Shown: positions 6,452-25,207 of the stretch, piece after piece
Position numbering within the stretch: the first letter of the stretch is position 1
Layout: each line of letters begins with the position of its first letter
DNA from: Planctomycetota bacterium
GTDB taxonomy: Bacteria > Planctomycetota > PLA2
Assembly (NCBI GenBank): GCA_021776735.1
Contig: JAJFFH010000070.1
Span: forward strand, 1-64,000
DNA: 64,000 bases
Direction of reading: 5' to 3'
Position numbers and translations under genes: made by a program
The notes under the pieces: generated by a model
Told to the model about the DNA's origin: nothing
The model's database searches: none
What the model saw: only the letters and a program-made list of their open reading frames with translations

Positions 6452-6470
6452 GCATCGCCGTCCGTACGCT
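6452..6470 (+). repeat. ATCGCCGTCCGT motif, intergenic
   Basis: gcatcgccgtccgtacgct, 3 nt after kdsB. Confidence 0.95.
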
Positions 6471-11570: not shown

Positions 11571-11675
11571 GATAACGGCCAAGTTCGGCGGCCCCAAGCG
11601 GGGCAGAGAGGATGGGCCCGAGTGCGAAAACGTCTCCCCGCTTGGGGTCCGCTGGAACGCGTTGTCGGGCGGCGT
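11571..11675 (-). other. candidate long integron attC-like site
   Basis: minus strand AACGCGTTCCAGCGGACCCCAAGCGGGG...CCCCGCTTGGGGCCGCCGAACTTGGCCGTTA; long stem with bulged base, just after DinB gene end. Confidence 0.55.
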
Positions 11676-11691
11676 CCCACCGCGCCTGCGG

Positions 11692-12165
11692 TTACGACCC
11701 GCTCGACGCTGCCATAGGCGGCCACGCGCCGATCCGCTGCCGCAACGCAACGATTTTGCCAAGGTGATAGGCGTTATGTACCGCCACACAGTTCAGCTCG
11801 TCGGCCAGTGTCTGGCCCGGCTCTACCTCGAGCGCCAATCGCTCGGGCTCCTGCCCCAACGCTGCCGCAACGCGCGCGCCGTCCAGGAACTTTTGCACCA
11901 AGTCGTGCCATTGGTGCTCGTGCTCCGGCGCCGCACTCGGGAACCGATCGCCGTCCGGGTCGCCCGAACCGATGATGCTCTCCTGGTACGCCACGACGTG
12001 CCACAACTCCTCGTAGATCGAGTGTGTCGCGCCGTCGGGGACTAGCGTGACTTGCTCGAGCGTCAGCCCGGACAGCAGGCGGGCTCGCTCGGGGAACTCG
12101 CCGACCAGAAACAGATGTTCGAGGATATGCATCGCATCATTTCCTTTTTGGCCAATGTTCGTCAC
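11692..12165 (-). CDS. DinB-family protein
   Basis: EELWHVVAYQESI...HNAYHLGKIVALRQ; starts just after an attC-like site. Confidence 0.85.
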   Translation of the reverse strand: MTNIGQKGNDAMHILEHLFLVGEFPERARLLSGLTLEQVTLVPDGATHSIYEELWHVVAYQESIIGSGDPDGDRFPSAAPEHEHQWHDLVQKFLDGARVAAALGQEPERLALEVEPGQTLADELNCVAVHNAYHLGKIVALRQRIGAWPPMAASSGS

Positions 12166-12179
12166 TGCGTTTGGTAGCC

Positions 12180-12242
12180 GCCCAACGCCTTGGGCGATCA
12201 GCGGCGACGCGAAGCGCGGTCCGCTGCATCGTCTAGTTGGGC
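12180..12242 (-). other. integron attC-like recombination site
   Basis: GCCCAAC (R'' type) and GTTGGGC (R' type) boxes; inner arms CGATCAGCGG / CCGCTGCATCG pair with one extrahelical base. Confidence 0.75.
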
Positions 12243-17957: not shown

Positions 17958-18617
17958 TCAAGAGCCTGTTCGCGTCCGCGTCCCGGATGTCTCGGCTTTT
18001 CTATTTTCGCCGGGACGGAGGTACGGCGCAAGGGTCGCAAGTTCGTCTTCGACCTCGTCGGGCGAGCGGCAGGTCAGGGCGATTTCACGGCGCAGGGCAC
18101 GCATCAGGCGGCCGCGGGCGATCCAAAGCCGGTTGCGGCTGGGAACACCGTCCTCTGCGCCGTCCTCTGGGCCGTCCTCTGGGCCGTCCAGATGAGCGCG
18201 AATCACGTCGAAATGGCGCGGCTCCTCCGCCGCCAAACGGTCCAGCCCGCGGGTAACGAGCCACAGCGCCCATTCGCGTGAAAACGCCTCGGCCGCGTCG
18301 TCGCGCGCCGGCAACTCCGGCAACTCCACCGGTGCCTCGCGCCTACGCCGAAACCAGTCCCGCACCGCGTTGCGCGTGACCGTCCCCAGCAGCGCCCGAA
18401 ACCGCCCGCGCTGCGCGTCGGCCCGCTCGAGCACCCGCCCCCTGAGCAGGCGCACGAACACGTCGTGGCACAGGTCCTCGGCCTCCTGAGCCGGCACGCC
18501 GCATGCGCGCACCGTGGCCAGCACCGGCGCACGATAGCTCGCCGCAAAGCGCTCCAGGGCCTCGGAGTCGTCGAGCCCGGCGGCGTGGACCAGCGTCCAG
18601 ACGGTTGTCGGAAACAC
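17958..18617 (-). CDS. RNA polymerase sigma factor (ECF / sigma-70 family)
   Basis: TVWTLVHAAGLDDSEALERFAASYRAPVLATVRACGVPAQEAEDLCHDVFVRLL. Confidence 0.85.
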   Translation of the reverse strand: MFPTTVWTLVHAAGLDDSEALERFAASYRAPVLATVRACGVPAQEAEDLCHDVFVRLLRGRVLERADAQRGRFRALLGTVTRNAVRDWFRRRREAPVELPELPARDDAAEAFSREWALWLVTRGLDRLAAEEPRHFDVIRAHLDGPEDGPEDGAEDGVPSRNRLWIARGRLMRALRREIALTCRSPDEVEDELATLAPYLRPGENRKAETSGTRTRTGS

Positions 18618-18647
18618 GAATCGCCCAGCTTATTACAATGCGCGCGC

Positions 18648-20821
18648 ATGGAGAACCGGCGCGATTGGGCGCGTAAGCTCGTGGACCGCGATTTTTTCGC
18701 CGATGGCGTCGATCGGGAGCCCGACACGGGCGAAGCCGAGGCCGAGATCCCGGCGAGTACCGACAAGTACGAGATTCAGCGGAGGATCGGTCAGGGGGGG
18801 GCGGGGGCCGTGTATCTGGCCCGGGACAAGACCCTCAACCGTCCGGTGGCGCTGAAGTATCTGCGCCACGCCCGCCCCACCGACATCGAGCGCTTCTTGC
18901 GGGAAGCTCGCTTCGCCGCGCGCCTGAACAGCCCGGCCATCGTCCGCATCTACGAGTGCGGCGACGTCGACGGCGTCCCGTTCATCGCGATGCAGTACGT
19001 CGCTGGCCCCAACCTCTCCGACGCGACCCTGGAGGTTGCGGGCGTGGTGCGCGCCGTGCGGGAAGTCGCGGACGCCCTCGTGCACGCGCACGACGCCGGC
19101 ATCGTCCACCGCGACATCAAGCCCGAGAACATTCTCGTCGATGCCGCGGGCCGCGCGTATCTCACCGACTTCGGCATCGCCCGCGACCTGCAGCGTGAAC
19201 TCGGCGCAACGATCAGCGCGGAGGGCCAGATCATGGGCACGCCCGCGCTCATGCCGCCGGAGCAGGCGCGCGGCGACATCCACGCCGTCGATGCGCGTTC
19301 AGACGTGTATTCCCTGGGCGCGACGCTGTTCACGGTCCTGACCGGCCGCTGGCCGTTTTCCGGCGACCATGTCGTCGAGGTGCTGCACGCCGTCCTGAAC
19401 GAGGACGCGCCGCTCCTGCGCGCGTTCCGGCCCGATCTGGACCGCAACCTGGAAACGATCGTGCACCGCTGCATGCGCAAGCAGCGCGCGGACCGCTACG
19501 CGTCGATGCGCGAGGTCGTGGCTGCACTCGACGAACACCTCGAGGGCGCGGTCCGTCCGGTTGCCGGCGCGTGGTTCAGCGCGTTCGTCAAGAGCCGCGT
19601 GGACGACGGCCCGGAGAGACGGGAGCCAGAGAATCGGGAGGCAGCGGAATCGGAGGCGCAGGAACCCGGGCGGGACAAGACCGGGACAGCGAACGCCGAT
19701 ACGGACCACGACTGGCAGGCGGCGGTGCAGGCAGCGCAGGAGATCGCCGACTGGGATGTCTATCTCTACCGGGTCCGCACGGATCTGCCGCGCGCGTTCC
19801 CGCGGCTCGATCGCCTCATGGAGCGGCTGAGCAACATCCTGGCCGACCACCCGGCGTGCGCGTGGGCGCGGTTTTATCGCGGTGTCGCGCAAGTACGGCG
19901 GGGACGGCTGGCCGAAGGGCTCGACGACATGAACGCTCGATCGCCCGTGTGCGCGACCTCGGCGCCGCGTATTTTGAACTCGGCCGCGCCTATCTCGTGC
20001 AGCACTTTCAGGCCCACGCCCGGGCGCACGACCACTTCAGCGTTGCGGGAACAACCGCAAGCCTCGCTGCCACGCACACGCCGATCGAGCAGGCCGCGCT
20101 CGCTTTCGCCGAGGCCGGCCGCGTCAACCCCAATGCCCCGGCCTGGTACGAGCCGTACGCGCGCGCGGTGCTTTTGCTGGCCCACGACGACGCAGCCGGA
20201 TGCGCTGGCGCAACCGAAGCGATCCTGGATCACGAGCCCGACCTCGAGGAGGTGTGGAAGCTGCACGCCGAAGCGCGAGCCCGGCTCGACGACACCGCGG
20301 GCGCCCTCGCGGCCTACGAGCGCGCATTGGATATCCGCCGCAGCGACTTCGAGTGCCACCTGGCCCGCGCCGCCCTGCTGCCCCCGAAACAGGCGACCAC
20401 CGAGCTGCACGCCGCACTGAAGATTCACCCCGGACTCAAGCCCGCCCACGCCCGCCTCGCCCGCTTGGCCCTGGACGCCGCTCAACTCGACGAAGCCGAA
20501 GAACATGCGAACGCCGCGCAAGAAACCTACGAGGGCGAGGTGTGCCGCGCCGAGCTGTTCTTGCAACGCGACGATCCCGCGCGCGCCCTTAAGGCACTCG
20601 CCAAAGCCCGCGAGCTGCCGGGCTGCCAGAACCGCGTCAACTACCTGGAGGCGAACGCCTGGCTGGCCCGCGCCCGCCAAACGAGCGGCGAAGAGGCGCG
20701 GCAGGATCTCGACCGCATCCTCGCCCTCGAAGACATCGACGGCCGCTTCAAGGTCCCGGACAGCGAACCCTGGCGCAAGCTGCTTGCAAAAGCCAAAGAA
20801 GCACGGGCCAGGCTCACGTAG
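18648..20821 (+). CDS. Ser/Thr protein kinase with TPR-like C-terminus, interrupted by a frameshift near 19934
   Basis: IGQGGAGAVYLARD, HRDIKPENILVD, DFGIA, GTPALMPPEQARG; continuation in ORF 19571-20821. Confidence 0.88.
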
Positions 20822-20847: not shown

Positions 20848-20866
20848 AGCTGACGGACGGCGATGT
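20848..20866 (-). repeat. ATCGCCGTCCGT motif, left arm flanking hairpin repeats
   Basis: agctgacggacggcgatgt. Confidence 0.95.
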
Positions 20867-20910
20867 TTTTTTTGGGGGGGCTAGTGCGCGGGTGGGCTCG
20901 CTTAGCGGGG

Positions 20911-21145
20911 GAACCGCTAAGCGATGAACTCGGGGGCGCACGCCGCACAGGGTCTTTTGGCTCAACGGCTGACGCCGTTGAGGCTCTTGCGGGCGGAGGG
21001 ATCTATCGCTTGGCGGATGAACCGCTAAGCGATGAACTCGGGGGTGGGCGCGCACAGGGTCTTCTGGCTCAACGACTGACGCCGTTGAGGCTCTTGCGGG
21101 CGGAGGGCTCTTTCGCTTGGCGGAGGAACCGCTAAGCGATGAACT
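20911..21145. repeat. ~108-bp tandem repeat (about 2.2 units) with two hairpins per unit
   Basis: gaaccgctaagcgatgaact at 20911, 21019, 21126; CTCAACGGC/GCCGTTGAG and TCGCTTAGCGG/CCGCTAAGCGA inverted repeats. Confidence 0.92.
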
Positions 21146-21158
21146 CGAGGGCGGGTGC

Positions 21159-21177
21159 GCATCGCCGTCCGTACGCT
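21159..21177 (+). repeat. ATCGCCGTCCGT motif, right arm flanking hairpin repeats
   Basis: gcatcgccgtccgtacgct. Confidence 0.95.
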
Positions 21178-21188
21178 TTCGGCCCGTT

Positions 21189-22886
21189 TCAGCGCTTGAC
21201 GTAGCTTCCGCCGCTCAAGCGTGCTGCGGCAGCCAGCGCAGGAGAATCGACACCGATCGCCACGACGTGCAGCAGGACCATCCGTTCGCGGTTCAACTTC
21301 AGGAACTCGTCGCGGATCTTGGTTACGTCGCGAATGTCGCCGGCGGTCGGTGCGCCGTCGGTCAGCAGCACGATCGTATCGACCGTCTTGTCCTTGAGCG
21401 CGAACTCGAGGGCGTCCCAGATGTTGGTCGCGCCACCAGCCTTGACTTTGTTGATCTCGGCCAGCGCCTTCTTCCGGTTCTTCTCGTTGGCCTTCACCAT
21501 CTTGTTGAAGAGGTGGTCGATCTTGGCGTCAAAAAACACGAGGTTGAAGCGACCGTGCGGCGGGAAGCGGTTGATGACCGCCGTGAGTTCCAGCTTGAGC
21601 CGGTCGAGGCGTTTGCCTTGCATGCTGCCGGACTTGTCGCAGATGAACGCGGCGCGATCCGACACCAGATCGATGCCGTAAAAAACGTAGTCGTTGTTCG
21701 CGTCGGTGTCTTCCTCCCACAGTTCCTTGGGCACCTGCGGCGGCCTGAAGCCGATGGCGTGCGTGCCCCACCATCGCTCCCACACCTTGGCGCTGCGGCC
21801 GAACGGCTGGCCGGTCAGCGACGTGAGCGCGTTCGCGATTTCGAACTGGAACCGGCCGGTCGCGGTCTTGAGCGCCGCGATCAGGGGCGGGATCGCGGCG
21901 GCGGAGCGCGTGCCGGCAAGGCCGCGCGTCGCGCCCAGCGGCACCTGCCACGGCTTTTTGGCCCGCAGCAACGCCGCAAGTGCTGGGACGGCGTCCGCGC
22001 CGCCGGCGTGGCCGAGCGACTCGGCCGCCTTCGCGCGCAGCCGACTGCTCCCGCTCTTCGCGGCCTTGGCGAGTGCCTCGACCAGCGCCCGGTCACGGAG
22101 GCCGCCGCGCGCGATCAGGTCGTAGAGTTCCCATCGATCGCGAAACGACTTGGCCTTCTTCAACAGGTTTTGCACGGACCGTCCGCGTGCGCTCGCACCG
22201 GCGAGACGCGCGAGCCCGATGGTCGCCACTAGCCGCACGCGCGGATCCGCATCCTTGCGGCCCTCCGTGAACGCGTCGCGAAAGCGCTCGTCGGCACGCG
22301 CGGCTACCGCGAGCAGCGCGAGTACTCGCACGCCGGGCGGCTTCGCCCATGACAGCGATGACAACGCTGCCAGCTTGCCCGGCGCCAGGCCACGCAGGAC
22401 CGCCAGGATCGCGCCCTGCTCCTGGGATGACAGCCGCGCGCACCCAACGATAATCTCGCGGACTGCGCCGGACCGCGCCAGCACGTCGACGGCCGTGCGA
22501 CGCGCGCGGCGGTCGGCGTCTCCGAGCATGTTCGACGCCGCCTCGATGGCTTTTTTGGGATCGAGCTTGGCGAGTGCGCGCAGCGCCGTCGCCCGGTGGA
22601 ACGGATCGGTCCAATCGATCAGGCGATCCGCGATGAACTGGCGCTGGCCGGGCCAGCGGCGGTGCGCCAGGGCCTCGACGAACGCGCGCTTCACGACCGC
22701 TTCGCGCGCGTTGTCTGTTTCCCCGTACAGCCAACTGCTGACCCCGCTTCCCTTGATCTTGGCGATCGCGGCCACGGCCTTGCGCGCGTCCTTGTAGCGT
22801 TCGTTCTTCACAGCCGTCAAGAACGCGCCCTTGAGCGAGGCGAAGTCGGGCGCCAAACAAGCAAGCGCGAGCAGGGCCGGAATCAT
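21189..22886 (-). CDS. secreted HEAT-repeat + von Willebrand factor A protein
   Basis: ICDKSGSMQGKRLDRLK MIDAS, IVLLTDGAPTAGD; N-terminal HEAT repeats. Confidence 0.85.
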   Translation of the reverse strand: MIPALLALACLAPDFASLKGAFLTAVKNERYKDARKAVAAIAKIKGSGVSSWLYGETDNAREAVVKRAFVEALAHRRWPGQRQFIADRLIDWTDPFHRATALRALAKLDPKKAIEAASNMLGDADRRARRTAVDVLARSGAVREIIVGCARLSSQEQGAILAVLRGLAPGKLAALSSLSWAKPPGVRVLALLAVAARADERFRDAFTEGRKDADPRVRLVATIGLARLAGASARGRSVQNLLKKAKSFRDRWELYDLIARGGLRDRALVEALAKAAKSGSSRLRAKAAESLGHAGGADAVPALAALLRAKKPWQVPLGATRGLAGTRSAAAIPPLIAALKTATGRFQFEIANALTSLTGQPFGRSAKVWERWWGTHAIGFRPPQVPKELWEEDTDANNDYVFYGIDLVSDRAAFICDKSGSMQGKRLDRLKLELTAVINRFPPHGRFNLVFFDAKIDHLFNKMVKANEKNRKKALAEINKVKAGGATNIWDALEFALKDKTVDTIVLLTDGAPTAGDIRDVTKIRDEFLKLNRERMVLLHVVAIGVDSPALAAAARLSGGSYVKR

Positions 22887-22937
22887 GCCCCGCATCGTAA
22901 CGCTTTCACGGGGCGGGCCTCCGAGTACCCTGCGCCC

Positions 22938-24993: not shown

Positions 24994-25113
24994 CGCGGAG
25001 GCGCCAGGAGCGCGCCCGCCTGGCGAGATCGAGCGCCCATGCTGGGCGCGTCGGTCGTGCCGCCGTCGCTTGAACCAGCAAACGCTACGTGAACGTCAGT
25101 CGTGAACGCGAAC

Positions 25114-25207
25114 GGGGTCGGGGTCGGGGGCGGGTTCGGGTTCGGGATCGGGATCGGGTTCGGGGTCGGGGTCGGGTTCGGGGTCGGGGGCGGCGGCGGC
25201 GGCGGGG
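25114..25207. repeat. hexanucleotide tract GGGNTC-type (~13 units)
   Basis: ggggtc ggggtc gggggc gggttc gggttc gggatc gggatc ... Confidence 0.95.

Follow-up and report, generated by a model that had tools for sequence, protein, structure and literature searches.

What is the structured tandem array that follows a protein kinase gene in contig JAJFFH010000070.1 of Planctomycetota bacterium GCA_021776735.1 (source genome of 5.97 Mb), and do the inverted motifs on its two sides belong to it? The locus was considered within the window, that is, the whole analyzed stretch of 64,000 nucleotides. An earlier note on this DNA had described a tandem repeat of about 108 bp with two hairpins per unit, bounded by uptake-like motifs in opposite orientations, and had offered three readings of it: a mobile or amplifying structured element, a strong terminator array, or an RNA.

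Structure of the array and its hairpins

The repeat itself is confirmed. TRF detects a 107-bp period with 2.5 copies (90% matches, score 435), the covariance model of the family described below matches at 20896-20998, 21004-21105 and 21111-21173, and copies of the 20-mer gaaccgctaagcgatgaact begin at 20911, 21019 and 21126, with two hairpins in each unit and all positions within one base of those given before (Table 1). ORFs, gene calls and Pfam domains agree with the earlier note in placing the array between the kinase gene and the convergent HEAT-VWA gene. The kinase-TPR gene is divided between two open frames (18465-20420 and 19571-20821), with the switch near 19930-19960; this apparent frameshift may be real or an assembly error.

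Table 1. Features of the array locus, in coordinates of the window
Feature	Position	Strand	Evidence
Ser/Thr kinase, then TPR-like region; 3' end toward the array	18465..20821	+	ORFs; Pfam Pkinase, weak TPR
Uptake-like motif AGCTGACGGACGGCGATG, GATG side toward the array; separate repeat system	20848..20865	+	
Tandem array, 2.5 units of 107 bp, order A-B-A-B-A	20898..21161	+	TRF, repeat finder, covariance model
Hairpin A copy 1, TCGCTTAGCGG-GGGAA-CCGCTAAGCGA	20898..20924	+	sequence; covariation in the array family
Hairpin B copy 1, CTCAACGGC-TGAC-GCCGTTGAG	20961..20982	+	sequence; relatives
Hairpin A copy 2, contains a G.U pair	21006..21032	+	sequence
Hairpin B copy 2, one mismatch (CTCAACGAC)	21068..21089	+	sequence
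Hairpin A copy 3, opens the partial third unit	21113..21139	+	sequence
Uptake-like motif AGCGTACGGACGGCGATG, inverted, GATG side toward the array	21160..21177	-	
HEAT-VWA gene, convergent; 3' end toward the array	21189..22895	-	gene call; Pfam HEAT_2 + VWA

The two hairpins measure 27 and about 30 nt, and both show compensatory changes. At the locus, hairpin A follows the pattern TCGCTTrGCGG-nnGAA-CCGCTAAGCGA and hairpin B the pattern CTCAACGrC-TGAC-GCCGTTGAG, the latter being found twice in the window, with a chance expectation of 0.00. The array region folds far better than shuffled sequences on each of the two strands (z of -8.3 and -9.2).

In hairpin A, stem position 1 alternates between C-G and U-A, position 4 between C-G, G-C and U-A, and position 7 between C-G, U-A, A-U and G-C, with many G-U pairs. 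Across the whole structure six pairs have changed on both sides, which was reached in none of 500 shuffles, nor by slid controls. Moreover, the stems of 66 hairpin A copies contain 26 G.T pairs and no A.C pairs, and since these wobbles are one-sided, it is the strand read from A to B that folds, whether in an RNA or in single-stranded DNA. One subfamily often carries a fixed C.C mismatch. Hairpin B has a nearly invariant frame, TCAACnnC-TnAC-GnnGTTGA plus a bulged G, in which the two n pairs switch together in the sister genus (GG, AT, GC, AC); the bulged G below the core is kept, and the lower stem shifts from GGCT/AGCC to GGT/ACC.

A search of the window against Rfam at the gathering score gave no match, and a tRNA search found nothing. 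The third reading of the earlier note, an RNA, thus has no Rfam match behind it, while the one-sided G.T wobbles would fit RNA as well as single-stranded DNA. Integron attC sites and CRISPR were set aside by eye, there being neither cassette genes nor spacers.

A dispersed family at gene 3' ends

According to the earlier note, its proposal would fail if the unit were absent elsewhere and untranscribed and the copy number were an artefact of assembly. Blastn with the array unit gave 69 matches across many contigs of the source genome, so the unit is dispersed. The examined sequence of this genome contains 37 sites with one to six units, at times inverted. An assembly artefact is unlikely as an explanation of the feature as a whole (as distinct from the unit number at a single locus), because arrays of one to six units occur at dozens of sites.

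A covariance model built from 37 units matches 139 units in the source genome and 30 in OFTM272, a MAG from the sister genus in the same family, with no matches in 15 other genomes of the order. The exact core of hairpin B is present in 73 copies in the source genome and 62 in OFTM272, as well as in two further MAGs, Bpl_4 and MAG-27 (28 and 45 copies, respectively). The bare hairpin B pattern gave two single matches in 292 other genomes of the phylum, and viral contigs yielded two chance-like coding matches. No relative of hairpin A is known.

The architecture of the repeat varies between genomes. Hairpin B alone forms a tandem unit of 33-40 bp in MAG-27, Bpl_4 and parts of OFTM272; the source genome and OFTM272 have the composite of 100-107 bp, which includes a second hairpin, and that of OFTM272 differs in sequence. 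In OFTM272, the hairpin B arrays of five loci (L102, L104, L116, L118, L091) are immediately preceded by long, near-perfect hairpins that differ in sequence and coincide with a stop codon or lie close to one. A further mosaic form is seen at gene ends in Bpl_4 (L158, L159, L161, L167, L202), where hairpin B comes after a composite of two other hairpins rich in GC (GCGGGGC.../GTGCCGC...). The largest array seen (L069, positions 11604-12240, contig C17 of the source genome) includes a three-unit block that looks duplicated, suggesting unequal recombination.

The genomic context was analyzed in contiguous contigs totalling 0.82 Mb and in loci of 3 kb, with genes predicted by a home-made caller based on codon usage and with arrays masked. 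Arrays occupy convergent gaps in 16 cases of 34, compared to 60 of 299 background gaps (Fisher p 0.0009), and divergent gaps in 2 of 34, compared to 76 of 299 (Fisher p 0.009); a stricter count on 17 hairpin B clusters shows the same direction with no statistical significance. The family shares two traits with REPs, which are palindromes of 20-40 bp in many dispersed copies and are sited outside genes, in convergent or co-directional gaps and rarely in divergent ones.

This location, together with the stable fold and the one-sided wobbles of hairpin A, is what would be expected if the array were mainly a 3'-end RNA device, whose serial hairpins terminate or stabilize the flanking transcripts and are retained for function rather than for mobility. 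In particular, hairpin B of OFTM272 often lies 6-60 nt past a stop codon in the sense orientation, and at two places directly 3' of tRNA genes (the tRNAs being read by eye). However, no T-tract follows the hairpin stems, and the search for intrinsic terminators gave one site, away from hairpins A and B, with 0.8 expected by chance. Moreover, the orientation of the hairpins relative to the adjoining gene is even in the source genome (9 sense, 11 antisense), the number of units is highly variable, and arrays are absent from most of the order, hence there is no general need for them. We consider a primarily RNA-level device unlikely. For the strong terminator array proposed earlier only a side role is possible: the arrays adjoin gene 3' ends, but the missing T-tract and the chance-level terminator calls speak against it.

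Relation to known REPs and to REP transposases

The reading that we prefer instead is that the array is a BIME-like mosaic belonging to a dispersed family of REP-like extragenic palindromes. REPs of the CGTC group have an unpaired 5' tag (CGTC, or else TGTC or CCTC), a stem of 8-9 bp, a loop of 4-5 nt and a short tail, mostly CCA, form a superfamily that includes neisserial dRS3, and are stated not to be linked to transposase genes (PMC3733652). On the reverse strand, hairpin B of the relatives reads nGTC-TCAACGGC-GTCA-GCCGTTGA-ACCA, its 8-bp stem TCAACGGC/GCCGTTGA and its 4-nt loop (GTCA or GTGA) being within the CGTC lengths. The preceding tag is CGTC, GGTC, TGTC or AGTC in MAG-27, Bpl_4 and OFTM272, whereas in the source genome it has drifted and reads GCTC or GGCC; the tails are ACCA or ACCC in the relatives, and AGCC or GCCA in the source genome. 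As in the CGTC group, hairpin B is extragenic and located near gene 3' ends.

The differences concern both sequence and arrangement. The hairpin B stem starts with TC (pairs T-A and C-G) rather than with two A/T pairs in positions 1 and 2, it carries a bulged base with a lower stem, its arrays are head-to-tail tandems rather than head-to-head dimers, and in MAG-27 it is linked to Y1 genes. The GTAG tag that stands 5' of the palindrome in RAYT-associated REPs is not carried by hairpin B in either the source genome or the relatives; CTAC precedes many hairpin A copies, which puts GTAG on the wrong side. Hairpin B thus closely resembles the CGTC repeats in sequence and appears to behave as a relative of them, but it is not assigned to the group, because of the different start of its stem and the drift of its tag in the source genome.

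Bacterial interspersed mosaic elements (BIMEs) are built of REPs and are associated with RAYT transposases. Like them, the array combines more than one kind of short palindrome into a mosaic, is dispersed between genes with one to six units per site, and belongs to a genome that encodes REP-transposase-like proteins; unlike them, it alternates two unrelated palindromes in a single orientation, and no RAYT-like gene lies beside the array family in the source genome.

Seven Y1/REP-transposase-like genes were identified in the source genome, with neither hairpin A nor hairpin B within 1.5 kb of any of the seven loci, and a RAYT-flanking REP in this genome was therefore rejected. Such genes are also present in family members without the hairpins, so that their mere presence proves nothing. 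As a positive control we used the Thermoguttaceae MAG RGIG3287, where repeated hairpins flank Y1 transposase genes at two loci (L225, L229; CCCCACGTC-TTTA-GACGTGGGG and CCGTGGGT-TTTA-ACCCACGG) and form classic RAYT-REP pairs.

In MAG-27 (JAEUHW; L336-L348), a Y1 gene occurs in over 50 copies, many of them in head-to-tail units of about 1.6 kb, and its protein matches NF047646, 'REP-associated tyrosine transposase', with a score below the cut-off. Hairpin B is located 10-15 bp before the first unit in eight of ten Y1 arrays (five intact, three degenerate), and is absent from the internal unit junctions. Here hairpin B stands beside a transposase of the right kind; since the Y1 arrays are homologous, the eight contacts may go back to one event inherited many times. 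This transposase is absent from the source genome and the sister genus, where identity is only 22-28%. A CGTC-like palindrome beside REP-transposase-like genes would be new, if the kinship with CGTC REPs holds.

Dispersal, the presence of one to six units per site, compensatory changes and the preference for 3' ends, along with the relatives in the sister genus and in two MAGs and the linkage of hairpin B to transposase-like genes in MAG-27, are the grounds for the preferred reading. As a description (REP-like, a BIME-like mosaic, dispersed and locally amplified) it is very probably correct; that the array is one copy of such a family with the spread proposed below is probable; and for spread driven by a transposase, arguments for and against are evenly balanced. 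With this array, REP-like repeats are extended to a planctomycete family that has been little studied, in the form of a two-palindrome mosaic.

In the proposed course of events, an HUH/Y1 transposase acting in trans would copy a single hairpin, in the form of single-stranded DNA, to a new 3' end, and either unequal recombination or slippage during replication would then multiply the unit locally. Convergent 3' ends would be sites where hairpin insertions are tolerated, and the flanking genes may use the hairpins as weak transcript ends. Replication-strand bias, a possible sign of single-strand transposition, is not seen in the source genome (8 vs 12), and in the sister genus it is weak (15 of 19) and confounded with gene direction. 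The mobile or amplifying element proposed in the earlier note fits the observed dispersal, local amplification and compensatory changes, and the vicinity of hairpin B to REP-transposase-like genes in a related MAG; movement and the 3'-end role are what we infer, no movement, empty site or transcript having been observed.

The uptake-like motif

The 18-bp motif AGCnnACGGACGGCGATG on both sides of the array has 803 perfect copies in the genome, almost equally distributed between the strands (387 and 416), while the reversed motif, taken as a control, has none. Its 13-mer core occurs 1202 times in the source genome, compared to 0-5 times in 58 relatives, and 31 times in the window with at most two mismatches (2.8 expected). 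The window contains 25 copies of the motif in almost perfectly alternating orientation (for example, at 6453, 8266, 17292, 24901, 30027, 34262, 42562, 46777 and 57577). The motif is preceded by A/G-rich bases and followed by pyrimidines.

The spacing of the copies is more even than random (variance/mean of counts of 0.56-0.69 at 10-20 kb). About half of the copies are intergenic, intergenic DNA being about one tenth of the total, and those inside genes are mostly in one frame per orientation (50 of 60 and 29 of 42). Orientations alternate beyond chance, the GATG side of short pairs being turned inward. In several well-aligned orthologues the motif replaces residues without an insertion, with gaps nearby in 12 of 20 alignments.

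Two readings tie the motif to the locus structurally. According to the first, the motif pair and the array form one MITE-like mobile element with the motifs as terminal inverted repeats: arrays lie inside an inverted motif pair both here and at contig C47:202573-202956, 13 of the 14 motifs near an array are turned toward it, and the outer pair closes the predicted fold of the array region. However, only two of 21 arrays are bracketed, therefore the motifs are not array termini; most of the 803 copies are away from arrays and in genes; some in-gene copies replaced residues by substitution, as the orthologue alignments show; and arrays occur in the sister genus, where the motif is almost absent. 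A motif-bounded MITE, hardly credible on this evidence, was rejected. The bounding of the array by opposite motif copies, claimed earlier, is correct for this locus (with starts at 20848 and 21160, not 21159), but not as a rule. The motif likely faces the arrays because the short stretch behind converging genes accommodates both.

According to the second, transcription of the two convergent genes would be terminated by the inverted motif pair, with the array inserted into this terminator. Among motif pairs under 1 kb, + to - pairs outnumber - to + pairs (25 vs 7, p 0.002), nine + to - pairs are less than 100 bp apart and could form stems, and a precedent exists in Neisseriaceae, where inverted DUS pairs are associated with terminators (PMC3630211). 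The pair considered here is, however, separated by 294 nt, far beyond the length of a terminator loop, and many motifs are unpaired or inside genes, which makes this explanation very improbable.

We therefore treat the array and the motif as two separate repeat systems, the motif being a second, independent repeat that probably accumulates by substitution and shares the 3'-end space with the array. Even spacing, frame bias, inverted pairs and the like have been reported for DUS and USS (PMC2346458, PMC3630211). DUS and USS are motifs of 9-12 bp or longer with hundreds to thousands of copies. The motif resembles these in having about 1,200 copies of a 13-mer, equal on both strands, evenly spaced, placed in preferred reading frames, enriched between genes, arranged in inverted pairs and restricted to one lineage. 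It differs in its host, a member of Planctomycetota, in a free dinucleotide that interrupts its 16 fixed bases, and in having no known receptor.

To our knowledge, uptake sequences come so far from two proteobacterial families only, Neisseriaceae and Pasteurellaceae; a search on uptake signal sequences in planctomycetes found no paper in the collection covered. No dialect of the motif is found among over-represented 11-mers of OFTM272 or G001. The source genome has a ComEC-type gene, but such genes are common in bacteria, so its presence proves little about competence. The term uptake-like, used in the earlier note, fits well on every sequence test made, and at the sequence level the motif is a strong candidate for uptake sequences having originated independently a third time. 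We tentatively suggest that it may function as a self-recognition sequence in DNA uptake, having arisen separately from the two proteobacterial cases, and that it may have colonised 3' ends shared with REP-like hairpins mobilised by an HUH transposase.

A further repeat, the G-rich hexamer (CGGGGT)n, occupies positions 25113-25193 of the window; tracts similar to it (related CGGGGTCGGGTTC) adjoin several hairpin arrays elsewhere in the genome (L019, L020, L069).
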